Source: Fidelibacterota bacterium (GTDB lineage Bacteria; Fidelibacterota; Marinisomatia; SCGC-AAA003-L08; TS1B11). From it: a stretch of 64,000 bases of DNA. Under the pieces are notes generated by a model, which worked only from the letters and a program-made list of their open reading frames with translations, was not told the DNA's origin and ran no database searches. Shown piece after piece: positions 1 to 5,249 of this stretch. Made by a program: the position numbers and the translations under genes. Every line of letters starts with the position of its first letter. The stretch's first letter is position 1. Location of the stretch: contig SCKI01000012.1 in NCBI GenBank assembly GCA_004124295.1, forward strand, positions 1-64,000. Reading direction: 5' to 3'.

Positions 1-1321
1 GCGGGGCCGGCGCCGGGGGCGGGGGGCGGGGAAATGGGCCGCCCTCCGGGCCGGGGGGTTGGCCCCCGCCGATGGCCGCCGCACAGGCCACCACCGACCC
101 GATGAAGATGGCTGCGGCCGGACCTACGTTGGCGCCGCCGTAGACCTTGAGGAAGTAGAGCAGCAGGGCAGATGAGAGGATGGTGGCGATGGTGACGCCC
201 GAAATGGGATTGTTGCTGGAACCGACCAACCCGGCCATGTAGGCGGCCACCGCCGAAAAGATGAATCCCGCCAGCAGCATGAACACGACCATCAGGGCGG
301 AGATGGCCACGCTGTCGACCACCGTGATGTAGATAGCGAATATCGGCACCACGGATACGCCCAGCGCAATGATCACCCATGGCAACGGCGTGTCCATCTC
401 GGTGCGCTCGATCGACGCGACGCCCTTGCTGCGGATGTTGCGGTAAACATCCATGCCGGAGCGGATGCCCCGGGCCAGGGACGACCGTAGGTTGATCAAG
501 GCCCACAGACCGCCGACGATCATGGAGCCGACGCCGATGTAACGGACCAGGTTGCCGTGCAGGTAGTCCACCGACGCGATGGCTCCTTCAGCCAGAATAT
601 CCGGGGGTATCTCAGCAGTGGCGGCCAGGATTGGCAGGGCAATCCAGCGGCCGATTACAGCGCCGCCGAATATCAGCGCCGATATATTGAAACCGACGAT
701 ATAGCCGACCGAGATCAGGGCCGGGGAGAGGTTGACCTGGAAGGAGAGGAAGGAGCTGCCCACCGCTTTGGCCCAGGCCACTTTGCCGGCCCAGAGGCGC
801 AACCCCTCCGCCATCAATTTAAAGACCCCGCCGATGAGGGCAGCCTGCACCAGCAGTCTCAATTTGCTGGCGCCGCTTTCGCCTGATTTCAGCACTTCCG
901 CCGTGGCGACACCTTCCGGGAATTGCAGATTCTCCTCGATAATGAGGGCCCGCCGGAGGGGGATGGTAAACAGCACACCGATGAGTCCGCCGGTGGCGGC
1001 GATGCCGGTGATGATCCAGTAATGCTCGCTGAAGCTGAACTCGGTCCACTCGCCCATCAACAAGAGGGCCGGAATGGTGAAGATCACGCCGCCGGCCAGC
1101 GATTCACCCGCCGAGGCCGCTGTCTGCACAATGTTATTCTCGAGTATGTTGGATTCGCGGAACAGGCGCAGGATGCCCATTGAAATCACGGCGGCGGGGA
1201 TGGATGCCGAGACGGTGAGACCGGCGTACAGGCCCAGGTAGGCGTTGGCCGCGGCCAACACCACGGACAGGATTATCCCCAGCAAGACCGCCTTGACGGT
1301 GATTTCCGGCAACGGCTTCAT
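1..1321 (-). CDS. OPT-family oligopeptide/metal-chelate transporter (3' part missing)
   Basis: Reading leftward from an ATG at 1321 (GAGAGG a few bases upstream) the frame stays open to the window edge, about 440 codons. The product is a multi-spanning membrane protein starting MKPLPEITVKAVLLGI with the OPT hallmark AANAYLGLYAGLTVSASIP, then a string of hydrophobic segments. OPT proteins import oligopeptides or metal-chelate complexes across the inner membrane, and bacterial members are usually 550-700 residues, so the C-terminus lies outside. The last ~28 codons (bases 1-85) lose OPT similarity. Where AIAGDNxQDLK is expected, the frame gives only Gly/Pro/Arg from G/C runs, which looks like bad consensus at a contig end. 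It is divergent from the riboswitch-controlled receptor. Substrate unknown. Confidence 0.85.
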   Translation of the reverse strand, partial: MKPLPEITVKAVLLGIILSVVLAAANAYLGLYAGLTVSASIPAAVISMGILRLFRESNILENNIVQTAASAGESLAGGVIFTIPALLLMGEWTEFSFSEHYWIITGIAATGGLIGVLFTIPLRRALIIEENLQFPEGVATAEVLKSGESGASKLRLLVQAALIGGVFKLMAEGLRLWAGKVAWAKAVGSSFLSFQVNLSPALISVGYIVGFNISALIFGGAVIGRWIALPILAATAEIPPDILAEGAIASVDYLHGNLVRYIGVGSMIVGGLWALINLRSSLARGIRSGMDVYRNIRSKGVASIERTEMDTPLPWVIIALGVSVVPIFAIYITVVDSVAISALMVVFMLLAGFIFSAVAAYMAGLVGSSNNPISGVTIATILSSALLLYFLKVYGGANVGPAAAIFIGSVVACAAAIGGGQPPGPEGGPFPRPPPPAPAP

Positions 1322-1480: not shown

Positions 1481-1509
1481 TTGAACGACCGGCCCGGCAG
1501 TTGTAAATT
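1481..1509 (+). promoter_or_regulatory. Candidate sigma-70 promoter of the riboswitch/TonB receptor transcript
   Basis: TTGAAC at 1481-1486 and TAAATT at 1504-1509 are separated by 17 bases. A start near 1516 would place the transcript 5' end at the edge of the TPP aptamer, leaving only a short P1 stem, so the real start may be slightly upstream. Prediction from consensus only. Confidence 0.4.
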
Positions 1510-1602
1510 TCGCGTCACAGGGGTGCTGCCGGTTGCACAGGTGTTCCGGCGGCTGAGAAAAGACCCAACGAACCTGAACTGGATAATGCCAGCGGAGGGA
1601 AA
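1510..1602 (+). promoter_or_regulatory. TPP riboswitch (THI element)
   Basis: The region carries the conserved TPP aptamer blocks in order: GGGGTGCTG (1520-1528), a P3-like stem, GGCTGAGA (1551-1558), ACCC, GAACCTGA (1570-1577) and CTGGATAATGCCAGCG ending in GGAGGGA (~1594-1600). The receptor ATG at 1605 follows at once, so the GGAGGG at the 3' edge of the aptamer is also the Shine-Dalgarno sequence. This predicts direct translational shut-off when thiamine pyrophosphate binds. No terminator hairpin lies between aptamer and gene. Transcribed towards the TonB receptor. Confidence 0.93.
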
Positions 1603-1604
1603 CC

Positions 1605-4109
1605 ATGAAAGCCAACCGAACTGCGGGACCGCAACTGCTGTCGAGCCTGCTCAGTCTAGCCATCATCTTGTCCGGCCGCCTCGAGGCCCAGACCAGCGCC
1701 ATCTACGGCCGCATCACGGATATCGAGACGGGGCTGCCCGTGGCCGGGGCCAACGTTATTATTGCGCGGCAGGGCCCCGATAAGGAGGCCCGTGGCGCGG
1801 TCTCGGCCGGGGACGGGCGCTTCAGCATCACCGCCGACACGCTCCCTGTCGAGATGGTCTTCAGCCGCATCGGCTATGCCGACACCACCCTTATGGCGGC
1901 CGCCTCCGGAGCCCTGGCCGTGCGCATGCGTCCGGTGGTACTGACCGGCGAGTCGGTGCAGATCGAGGCCCTGAGGGCAGTCCGGGGCGATAGCCCGGTG
2001 GCCTTTTCTACGCTGGACCGCGAAACCATCGAGCGGCGCTACAGCCACCAGGACGTGCCGATGATCCTGGCCAGCCAGCCGGGGGTCTATGCCTATTCGG
2101 ACGCCGGCAATGGGGTCGGCTACACCTACCTGAGCATACGCGGTTTCTCCCAGGACCAGATCGGTGTCTACCTCAACGGCATCCCCCTTAACGATCCGGA
2201 GAACCACGCCGTCTACTGGGTCGACCATGGCGACATCCTGGCCGATGCCGGCGATATCCAGATCCAGCGGGGTGTGGGCAACTCGCTGTATGGCAGCGGT
2301 GTGTTCGGCGGCTCGGTGAACCTCTCTACTGGCAGCGCCGGCAGGTTGCCCGGCCTGAGGGTCACGACCGGTTGGGGCAACTACACCGACAGCGCCCTCA
2401 ATCTGCCCAGCCGGAAGGTGTCGGCCGCCTTTTCCAGCCGCGTGGCAGCCTATCAAGGTTGGCAGGTCTTTGGGCGGATCAGTGCCCTGAACAGCTCCGG
2501 CTACCGGATAGGCAGCGGCACGGACCAGCAGTCGCTGCACCTGGGCGCTGAGCGCAGTTCCGCCACCAGCCTGACCCGCCTGGAGGTCCACTGGGGCCAT
2601 GAGGAGACCGCCTTTTCGTGGGAAGGGGTCATACCGGCCTACGGGTACGATCTTGACGACCGGGAGGATCGCCGCTATAACTTTTATGCCGACACCCTCT
2701 TCAACGCCGGACTGAATAATGCCAACAAGGATGTTTTCACCCAATCAATCATCTCCCTGCAGCACAGCCGGATGTTTGGCCCCCGGCTCGCCTCGGTGAC
2801 CATTTACCGGGTGCAGGGCGACGGCTATTACGAGCAGGTGAAAACGGACCGCAATCGCGAGGAGTACAATATTGCGGGGATCGTCCTGACCGAATCTCCT
2901 TATGCCACTCTGATCCGGCAGCGCTGGCTGCGCAACGGCTACAGCGGGGCCGTGGGGCAGTTGACCCTCCCTGCAGGGCGGCTCCGGGTGACAGTAGGTG
3001 GCGATGCCCGCTTCTACCGGGCCGAGCACTACGGCAAGGTGATCGAGCTGCTCTCGGATCCGGCCAGTGTGCCGGCCGATCACCGCTACTACAGCGACAC
3101 CAGCAGGAAAACCAGCTTCTCGCTGTTCCTGCATTCCCGCTGGGACATCACCCCTGCCCTGCGAGCCGTGGCCGGTCTGCGCTACCTGGGCCATCGCTAC
3201 GCCTACCGGCAGTCGGTGCTGGGGGCCTTTACGGAGGGCTACTCCTTCGACCTGCGGCATGATTTTATCGATCCCCACCTGGGCCTGATCTTTGAACCCA
3301 GCCCTGGGCTGTCCATCTTTGCCAACGTCTCCACGGCCCAGAGGGAACCGGCCAACAGTGATATTTACGATCATGATGATCCGGCGGCCGTGCCGGCTGT
3401 GGCGGACATGTCGGCCCAATGGGCCACGCCGCTGGTCCGTAGCGAGGCCCTCACCGACTACGAGCTGGGCCTGAGCCTGGAGCGCCCGGCCTTGAGCGCC
3501 GAGATCAACCTTTACCGCATGGACATCCGGGACGAGCTGATCCCGGCCTTCTATCGCTACACCGACGCCGACGAGGTGTTCCATGCCAATGCTCCCCGGA
3601 CCCGGCACCAGGGGCTGGAAGGGAGCCTCCGCCTGGCGCCCCGGCACTGGCTGCAGCTCAGCGCCAGCCTCACCTTTGCCGACAACCGCTTCCTCGAATT
3701 CAGCGGCGACAGCCTGGGCTGGGGCGGCTACGGCGGCATTGCCGACTATGCCGGCAAACAGGTGCCGGCCTTTCCCCGCTGGCAGGGGCATATTGAGATT
3801 GTCGTCCGCCACCGGCAGCACAGTGGCTGGCTGGATCTGCGCAGCATCGGCCCGCAGTACATCGATTTCCTCAACACCGAGGCGGTGGCCATTGCCCCTT
3901 ACGGCCTGGCCAACCTGGGTGTCAGTCTGGCACTGCCGACACGGGCCGGACTGTCGGGAAAACTGACCCTGAGGATCAACAACCTGGGCGACCGGCTCTA
4001 CGAAACCTTCGGCTATACCTATTTCGATGGGGACCCACCCCAGCAGATCGCCGCCTATTGGCCCGGCGCCACCCGGAACTATTTCCTGGAACTGGAACTG
4101 CGGCGGTAG
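1605..4109 (+). CDS. TonB-dependent outer-membrane receptor, probably for thiamine
   Basis: The 834-residue product has a signal peptide (residues 1-29, cut after LEAQ), a carboxypeptidase-regulatory-like beta domain (~30-110), a plug domain (~125-240, with LSIRGF and VYLNGIPLNDPENHAVYW) and a 22-strand-type barrel to the C-terminus, ending in the aromatic/hydrophobic pattern NYFLELELRR. Such receptors take up scarce ligands across the outer membrane using TonB energy. The TPP riboswitch directly upstream, sharing its ribosome binding site, argues that the ligand is thiamine, a phosphate ester or a precursor. TPP-controlled TonB receptors are predicted thiamine transporters in Bacteroidetes. 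No inner-membrane thiamine transporter or kinase is adjacent. The stop codon is followed immediately by a ggcagt repeat array. Confidence 0.9.
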   Translation: MKANRTAGPQLLSSLLSLAIILSGRLEAQTSAIYGRITDIETGLPVAGANVIIARQGPDKEARGAVSAGDGRFSITADTLPVEMVFSRIGYADTTLMAAASGALAVRMRPVVLTGESVQIEALRAVRGDSPVAFSTLDRETIERRYSHQDVPMILASQPGVYAYSDAGNGVGYTYLSIRGFSQDQIGVYLNGIPLNDPENHAVYWVDHGDILADAGDIQIQRGVGNSLYGSGVFGGSVNLSTGSAGRLPGLRVTTGWGNYTDSALNLPSRKVSAAFSSRVAAYQGWQVFGRISALNSSGYRIGSGTDQQSLHLGAERSSATSLTRLEVHWGHEETAFSWEGVIPAYGYDLDDREDRRYNFYADTLFNAGLNNANKDVFTQSIISLQHSRMFGPRLASVTIYRVQGDGYYEQVKTDRNREEYNIAGIVLTESPYATLIRQRWLRNGYSGAVGQLTLPAGRLRVTVGGDARFYRAEHYGKVIELLSDPASVPADHRYYSDTSRKTSFSLFLHSRWDITPALRAVAGLRYLGHRYAYRQSVLGAFTEGYSFDLRHDFIDPHLGLIFEPSPGLSIFANVSTAQREPANSDIYDHDDPAAVPAVADMSAQWATPLVRSEALTDYELGLSLERPALSAEINLYRMDIRDELIPAFYRYTDADEVFHANAPRTRHQGLEGSLRLAPRHWLQLSASLTFADNRFLEFSGDSLGWGGYGGIADYAGKQVPAFPRWQGHIEIVVRHRQHSGWLDLRSIGPQYIDFLNTEAVAIAPYGLANLGVSLALPTRAGLSGKLTLRINNLGDRLYETFGYTYFDGDPPQQIAAYWPGATRNYFLELELRR

Positions 4110-4113
4110 GAGG

Positions 4114-4160
4114 GTGGCAGTGGCAGTGGCAGTGGCAGTGGCAGTCGCAGTTGGCAGGGG
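4114..4160. repeat. GGCAGT hexamer array after the TonB receptor stop codon
   Basis: Four to five tandem GGCAGT units followed by degenerate units (CGCAGT, TGGCAG) begin four bases after the stop codon. Related arrays follow the genes ending at 13934 and 17513 and occur inside polA. Short GTCC/CCTTAG tracts follow at 4170-4205. Confidence 0.85.
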
Positions 4161-4208
4161 GGTTCAGGTTTCAAGTCCTTGGTCCTTAGGCCTTAGTCCT
4201 TAGTCGTT

Positions 4209-4251
4209 ACCCTGAGCTGCCGAAGGGCCGGGGGGTGAGTGTTTCCTACCT
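4209..4251. repeat. CCCTGAG..CGAAGGG palindromic repeat with GGTGAGTG end
   Basis: ACCCTGAGCTGCCGAAGGG is followed by GGGGGGTGAGTG. The first part recurs inside polA (6934-6953) and, inverted, at 5571-5581 and 15910-15929. The GGTGAGTG end matches the right end of the hairpin elements at 5549 and 14007, so this appears to be a partial copy of that family. Confidence 0.75.
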
Positions 4252-4397: not shown

Positions 4398-5249
4398 TCA
4401 ATTGATCGATTCCTTTTTGATCAGGACATTTGTGATATAGTAAAGCAACGAAATCGATTTTAGGCTGTTGACTTCTGTGCCGTATTGAAGATTGACTCCA
4501 TGCAGCACTTCATGGCGGTTCAATCGCTGGCTGTCTGCCTTATCAGGCTCTTTAGAGTCTAAAATGGGCAAAATGATGCTAAGGGGGTACAGGAATGCAG
4601 CTCTCAGACTATCCTCATCTGCTAGGTCATAAATTCTAGCAGTTACCGGGCGACCGTGTTCCTTTTTAAATAGTTCGAATCCTGTGTGCTCCTTACAGAT
4701 GCCGTCCGCTTGTGCAAGCAAGACGGGCACAGAGAGATAGAATTGCTTTTTCTTATGTGCAACGGCAGCCTGATTAATGATCTTGGCCCGATGGGGGTGT
4801 TTTTCTGTAAGCTTGGTAAATATTTCCGGGTATCGCCTTCTATAGTGCGTAACCAACGCCTTTTGAGCCTCGTCATGATCATCATTGTCGATGGCCCGGG
4901 CAAATTTCCAAGTTTCTGCGGGTGTGGTATCATGGTCTAGGTACCATCCTTGCTCGCCCAATTTCCTCAGGGCGGATTTAGTCTCTCGCGAGAAGTTTTT
5001 AGAATTTTCCCGCATTTGTTTAATCGCTTCAATGTTCGGTCGGAATTGCTCGAATATTTGCCTAGTCAGTCTTGCCTGCTTCTCCACGTGTTTTCGAAAT
5101 TGCTCAAATGGTCGATGAGCATTTAATATGGCAGCGGTTATTCCTGCCATTTGGCTAGTCATAGTTCGCGCAATAGACTCATGCAATTTCCTCTGAGATA
5201 TGAATTGTTTTTCGATCTGCTCTCGAAGGGTTTTCTCTATGTTCTTCAT
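4398..5249 (-). CDS. HEPN-like hypothetical protein, possible RNase/defence toxin
   Basis: This 283-residue protein is coded by clearly AT-richer DNA than its neighbours. Residues 1-~95 are charged and helical and probably coiled coil. The C-terminal region is helical and contains N-R-H-E-V-L-H-G (R245 to H250), matching the R-[NHD]-x3-H signature of HEPN ribonucleases and followed by YGTEVNSLKSISLL, a context I associate with uncharacterised HEPN-like proteins. HEPN domains often act as RNA-cutting toxins in toxin-antitoxin and abortive infection systems, but no antitoxin-like partner is adjacent. The start is ATG at 5249 with weak GGAA upstream. Orientation is opposite to the flanking genes. 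Acquisition by transfer is likely; the function is inference. Confidence 0.6.
   Translation of the reverse strand: MKNIEKTLREQIEKQFISQRKLHESIARTMTSQMAGITAAILNAHRPFEQFRKHVEKQARLTRQIFEQFRPNIEAIKQMRENSKNFSRETKSALRKLGEQGWYLDHDTTPAETWKFARAIDNDDHDEAQKALVTHYRRRYPEIFTKLTEKHPHRAKIINQAAVAHKKKQFYLSVPVLLAQADGICKEHTGFELFKKEHGRPVTARIYDLADEDSLRAAFLYPLSIILPILDSKEPDKADSQRLNRHEVLHGVNLQYGTEVNSLKSISLLYYITNVLIKKESIN

Follow-up and report, generated by a model that had tools for sequence, protein, structure and literature searches.

A TPP riboswitch overlapping the ribosome-binding site of a predicted thiamine receptor gene in Neomarinimicrobiota

Near one end of a contig from an uncultured Neomarinimicrobiota genome, a gene for a TonB-dependent receptor follows so closely on a putative thiamine pyrophosphate (TPP) riboswitch that the two appear to share a ribosome-binding site. 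This raises the question of whether the element controls translation through that site, and of what the receptor imports. The window analysed here, a stretch of 64,000 nucleotides, starts at base 1 of a contig of 93,683 bases (C17) in a draft genome of 2.55 Mb that is 92.6% complete (G000). We judge it likely that a TPP riboswitch represses, at the level of translation, a TonB-dependent receptor importing thiamine or a close derivative in a thiamine-auxotrophic member of the Neomarinimicrobiota. Sequence comparison establishes four parts of this reading: that there is an aptamer, that it overlaps the ribosome site, that it constantly accompanies the receptor, and that ThiC and ThiE are lacking. 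The features of the locus are compiled in Table 1.

Table 1. Coordinates of the riboswitch, its predicted promoter and the adjoining genes in the window
Feature	Position	Strand	Basis
OPT-family transporter, divergent, near contig edge, not under the riboswitch	80..1321	-	PF03169, 1.6e-64
TTG, -33 element of predicted promoter	1481..1483	+	Spacing conserved in relatives
TAAATTTC, -7 box (TAnnTTTG type) of predicted promoter	1504..1511	+	Conserved position in relatives
TPP aptamer core, P2 to thi-box	1520..1600	+	RF00059, own model R1, covariation in P2-P5
CCU, 5' strand of helix P4, pairs with 1596-1598	1573..1575	+	Consensus structure, pair counts
GGAGGG, Shine-Dalgarno-like, inside thi-box	1594..1599	+	Sequence, pair counts
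TonB-dependent receptor, 834 aa, predicted thiamine importer	1605..4109	+	Pfam, regulation, genome context

A default Rfam scan of the whole window returned one tRNA and no TPP riboswitch, because the element, at 49.0 bits, stays under the gathering score of the TPP family (RF00059; 54.3 bits). By its E-value it belongs to this family, though below the curated cut-off: the match spans positions 1509-1618 (E = 1.2e-8 in a 501-base scan) and was the only TPP match at E ≤ 10 in a genome-wide RF00059 search (E = 1.4e-8), bearing out the riboswitch proposed in the initial annotation. R1, a model of our own, assigned the element 81.8 bits, with the window's riboswitch being among the 30 of the order on which this model was trained. 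Inspection of the aptamer located GGGGTGC (1520-1526), GGCTGAGA (1551-1558), ACCC (1563-1566) and the 3' block ACCTGAACTGGATAATGCCAGCGGAGGGAA (1572-1601). The 30 bases of the latter differ from the 3' core of Escherichia coli thiM at two positions (28/30 identical), as compared to 20/30 for the runner-up 30-mer on either strand of the whole window, and the aptamer core as such is that of both E. coli thiM and tbpA. Likewise, the core blocks of the window align with the Rfam consensus and with 29 relatives. Across the family, 98.6% of the cells in P2-P5 are paired (96.9-100% per helix for P2, P3, P4 and P5), and 42 cells have changed on both sides, vs. 5.9 in shuffles. As the folding energy of the leader was no better than that of shuffled sequences (z = 0.37), the case for a TPP riboswitch rests on conserved sequence and comparison.

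All aptamer blocks had initially been described as readable. While this holds for the named blocks, the consensus closing helix P1 does not form in the window: it comprises 0 bp in a narrow register, unlike in E. coli thiM (4 bp) and tbpA (6 bp) by the same measure, and the RF00059 alignment marks the consensus P1 pairs as broken. P1 is short and variable among relatives (at least 4 bp in 26/101, at most 2 bp in 43/101), with 53.0% of its cells paired across the family vs. 41.9% after shuffling; in 9 of the 101 relatives, P1 is at least 4 bp long and extends into the start codon. We considered a family devoid of P1 and rejected this notion, since mate-swapping and column shuffles showed that some family members do possess a real, though short, P1. 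P1 is thus missing from the window element and some other family members, not from all. P1 lies outside the ligand-contacting core of the TPP aptamer, which is why we retain the assignment despite the missing helix.

Homologues of the receptor were found at 47 loci when a collection of 84,980 species was scanned. Using the model derived from 30 riboswitches of the order, a TPP element was found upstream of 44 of them (two, L044 and L064, being partial), and the remaining three (L043, L068, L072) start at a contig end, without upstream DNA. The scenario initially named as fatal to the assignment, that is homologues governed by other riboswitches with the present element as an exception, is therefore not borne out among these loci. 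As some of the 47 loci stem from the same genomes as training rows of the model, Rfam's own model served as the independent check. RF00059 found the element in 32 of the order's 41 genomes and in 172 of 245 genomes of the phylum, nearly always in one copy. The 9 and 73 genomes, respectively, that had no TPP match speak against the proposed reading. None of the six genomes of one genus of the same order (g7; G001-G006) had such a match and three of them retained thiamine pyrophosphokinase; uptake there may hence be unregulated or differently regulated.

Of 31 elements fetched from the order, one is cut; in each of the other 30, an open reading frame (ORF) begins within the 3' end of the matched stretch. 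By BLAST, 14 of these ORFs, counting that of the window itself, are clearly homologous to the window receptor, and all ten tested among the other 16 encode a Plug domain. A further 80 stretches were picked among the phylum matches listed, for spread over genera. Loci found by a fuzzy pattern, minus near-duplicates and those with fewer than 45 bases upstream, amounted to 113 elements; 26 loci had no pattern match (among them stretches lacking the riboswitch, several decayed copies in one genome, G102, as well as L132, L139 and L150). In 101 of the 113 dereplicated elements, a TonB receptor-family protein starts at most 12 nt past the AGG of the thi-box, overlapping the ribosome site. The 12 exceptions comprise two truncated elements (L023, L114), four decayed G102 copies, four elements in G062/G063 that are followed by terminator-like sequence, L112 preceding Thi4, and L138, which has no near ORF. 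G102, a genome of the same class, harbors 12 TPP matches, of which L089 is a good copy before a receptor, whereas about ten others (L091, L094-L103) are degraded. Several degraded copies share one 3' flank and a terminator-like hairpin, and they look as if the riboswitch and leader had been copied and scattered.

Within the window, the ribosome site lies inside the aptamer, as GGAGGG contains the AGG (1596-1598) that forms the 3' strand of P4. The first reading of the locus had placed this GGAGGG 5 bases before the ATG at 1605, without a terminator; the spacing is exact and nothing terminator-like was found in 1322-1800, so no separate expression platform precedes the start codon. Where the thi-box of a relative reads GTAGG or GAAGG instead of GGAGG, a Shine-Dalgarno (SD)-like sequence (GGAG, GGAGG or AGGA) either overlaps the thi-box or comes right after it, and the distance between SD and start is similar across thi-box types (5.9 ± 1.9 nt, n = 63 vs. 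6.3 ± 1.7 nt, n = 38). An intragenic terminator was dropped from consideration: a hairpin with a T-run shortly past the start codon occurred in 15/55 relatives vs. 9.0 ± 2.5 in shuffles (maximum 16), and the window has none. Four loci (L048, L051, L044, L089) carry a near-identical terminator-like hairpin (CCTCTTC...GAAGGGG-ATTTTT) in the first receptor codons.

The sequence upstream of P2 matches a predicted Bacteroidetes-type promoter. TAnnTT starts 14-21 nt ahead of the GGGG of P2 in 76/101 relatives (shuffles: 14.0 ± 3.2, maximum 24), and in 34 of these 76 a TTG resides 22-24 nt ahead of the TA box (shuffles: 4.7 ± 2.1, maximum 11), the distance in the window being 23 nt. This spacing between TTG and TA box is that of the Bacteroidetes promoter. 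In Flavobacterium, the TAnnTTTG box occupies positions -12 to -5, according to an excerpt of PMC9723704. The predicted transcription start falls 3-9 nt ahead of P2 in the family and at ~1516, i.e. ~4 nt before P2, in the window, and the resulting 5' leader of ~89 nt would therefore consist almost only of aptamer.

On a transcript of this kind, TPP binding would lock P4/P5. Because the 3' strand of P4 is the heart of GGAGG, locking would hide the ribosome site directly, such that the 30S subunit could not load; at low TPP, P4 would open and the receptor would be made. Imported thiamine would then be moved inward by a symporter encoded beside thiamine pyrophosphokinase, and this kinase would convert thiamine to TPP, closing the loop. 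From the anatomy of the leader, direct occlusion appears to be the best reading. We put forward more tentatively, and at somewhat below even chances, that direct occlusion by a TPP riboswitch is lineage-wide, with a promoter abutting the aptamer, a leader that is all aptamer, an optional P1, and a P4 3' strand that doubles as the SD sequence. If true, TPP riboswitches, at present classed with strand exchange, would also operate without an expression platform.

An open ligand-free state is not obvious from the predicted ensemble, which counts against direct occlusion. With transcription starting at 1516, most SD bases are predicted to stay partly paired in the ligand-free RNA, in part with early codons (unpaired probabilities of 0.28, 0.25, 0.84, 0.63, 0.01 and 0.30). 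This pairing of the thi-box with early codons is what one would expect of a usual strand-exchange TPP riboswitch, in which the ligand-free thi-box pairs with early codons or another anti-aptamer strand and TPP shifts the balance; for instance, E. coli tbpA uses an anti-P1 stem as a separate expression platform (PMC11487190, in the part available). However, the leader in this family ends at the start codon, 5-12 nt past the thi-box AGG in 101/113 elements, so that a conserved alternative strand would have to sit in the coding sequence, and we regard strand exchange as unlikely here. As for direct occlusion, the lineage may lean little on SD pairing, since SD-like sequence precedes only 12 of the 40 long ORFs of the window, not all of which are real genes (8.6% at random positions). 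Bacteroidetes are described as largely without SD sequences in an excerpt of PMC6847099. Occlusion could then cover the whole initiation region instead of SD pairing.

Among known riboswitches, the accessible part of a 2024 review assigns direct occlusion to SAM-II, SAM-III, preQ1-I and preQ1-II and files TPP under strand exchange (PMC10907184). As in these four classes, the ribosome site of the window is part of the aptamer, but their ligands and folds are other than those of the TPP element. A further point against our reading comes from Bacteroides thetaiotaomicron, where, in the portion of PMC5613172 available, thiamine did not significantly alter the mRNA of transport operons preceded by TPP riboswitches; an RNA-level response of that type was hence not seen in this species.

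As for the cargo, the product of the controlled gene is a TonB-dependent receptor by domain content, with a CarboxypepD_reg domain and with Plug (PF07715, 2.5e-14) and TonB β-barrel (PF00593, 2.9e-33) domains over their cut-offs; no NCBIfam model matched it over cut-off. Its closest named relatives belong to Candidatus Neomarinimicrobiota, with 77% identity to the protein of strain TS1B10-1. ThiC was detected in 0/41 genomes of the order (13/14 control genomes being positive), and ThiE (TIGR00693) exceeded its cut-off in 0/41, with 11/41 matching below it at no more than 26 bits. Matches to the ThiG model PF05690 in 39/41 genomes were not counted as ThiG, because the listed ones are partial, extending over no more than 123/247 model positions at a maximum of 30 bits. 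Thiamine pyrophosphokinase, in turn, was present in 36/41 genomes. Together, these counts support the thiamine-type ligand that the initial annotation had assigned to the receptor, and place TPP control in a thiamine-needing genome, as expected of a thiamine receptor of the OMthi type (see below). The gene profile points to a thiamine-salvaging auxotroph that would import thiamine and phosphorylate it.

In the genome studied, thiamine pyrophosphokinase (C20:59127-59702) adjoins a gene for a sodium:solute symporter on the same strand, abutting or overlapping it (L083 5695-7724). The same pair recurs in two other genomes (G040, G033), and in G000 it has no riboswitch of its own. Its location on another contig agrees with the earlier remark that no other thiamine gene is near the receptor. 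The symporter is a candidate inner-membrane importer of thiamine. PnuT was discarded for this role, as it matched 3/41 genomes (two over cut-off), always partially and never in G000.

Given a B1-sensing switch on its ribosome site and a host seemingly unable to make B1, the receptor is very probably an outer-membrane vitamin B1 importer, as predicted from gene content and regulation. The one clear cobalamin riboswitch of the genome (over cut-off) precedes a different Plug-domain protein (L188 1-1437, minus strand; BLAST E = 0.013 to the window receptor), arguing for two receptors with separate signals. In other members of the phylum, Thi4 with TMP synthase and an NMT1/THI5-like gene are preceded by TPP elements, which would therefore read thiamine status there too. 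Alternatively, the receptor might import a thiamine precursor or other ligand (the pyrimidine or thiazole part, or TPP), TPP merely reporting status. Receptor specificity is unreadable from sequence, and the matches in the PDB are weak and restricted to siderophore and colicin receptors; yet free thiamine is the best fit to genomes that have lost ThiC and ThiE while keeping the pyrophosphokinase, as precursor salvage would require ThiE-type joining and a cell importing TPP could do without the kinase. We hence consider another ligand improbable. With free thiamine as the predicted cargo, a substrate is assigned to a receptor family common across an uncultured phylum. The locus also points to a dependence on vitamin B1, with synthesis genes missing and the only TPP riboswitch found controlling the outer-membrane entry step.

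Comparable systems are known. The available text of PMC5613172 describes OMthi (BT2390) of B. thetaiotaomicron as a TonB-dependent thiamine receptor under a TPP riboswitch, the arrangement also seen in the window, and reports that a strain lacking biosynthesis needs more thiamine once OMthi is deleted. Bacteroides is able to synthesize thiamine, and its OMthi is accompanied by PnuT and tnr3 (PMC5613172); unlike in Bacteroides, ThiC, ThiE and a PnuT-type protein were not found in G000, and a sodium:solute symporter accompanies the kinase. Caldithrix abyssi (Cabys_3975-3977) combines a TPP riboswitch with the same three functions as here, TonB receptor, sodium:solute symporter and thiamine pyrophosphokinase, and has an incomplete thiamine pathway, according to an excerpt of PMC5317091. 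The Caldithrix genes lie side by side and the riboswitch precedes the receptor by 163 nt, whereas in the present case riboswitch and ribosome site overlap, and kinase and symporter are encoded on a different contig. TPP-controlled TonB receptors were also noted in metagenomes, as 'omr' (PMC2211319, in part).

With such receptors known from Bacteroides, metagenomes and Caldithrix, the present locus is another case of an established TPP-TonB pairing, in which sensor and ribosome site are almost completely fused. For thiamine-regulated outer-membrane receptors, later authors cite Rodionov (2002; J Biol Chem 277:48949), a study that reportedly noted an overlap of some THI elements with ribosome sites. 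In the part of the literature covered, we found no report on the fusion of a TPP element with the ribosome site, for which we claim no priority, and among the texts retrieved on Marinimicrobia with thiamin and riboswitch none described such an element in that phylum. The compact architecture may deserve the status of a variant once ligand-dependent occlusion is measured. If it works as drawn, it would represent a natural minimal TPP switch whose sensor is the ribosome site, easily tested in vitro.

Decay of the TPP element to a sequence that has lost its switching ability and is retained as a ribosome site only would fit the score under the Rfam cut-off, the missing P1 and the existence of decayed copies in another genome of the class (G102), but is highly improbable, as the core positions invariant in the 30 aligned elements are intact in the window (by definition, the window being one of the 30) and the same-genus relative with 77% protein identity also keeps the element.

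We noticed further features flanking the locus. A homologue of the divergent OPT transporter occurs in 24/87 sequences (window and duplicate stretches included). An OPT gene is found near the TPP-controlled receptor, usually in divergent orientation, even in distant families of the phylum (L008, L012, L013, L022, L025, L028, L031, L042, L048, L051, L057, L059, L060, L061, L067, L069 and L075). This adjacency possibly reflects a functional link or very old synteny, and as a conserved neighbor, though one not under the riboswitch, the OPT transporter is a candidate thiamine importer only. Downstream, positions 4398-5249 (minus strand) hold an ORF of 283 aa without a Pfam match. Between this ORF and the receptor, right after the receptor stop codon (4110-4210), lie short tandem repeats consisting of ggcagt units followed by ccttagtccttagtc.
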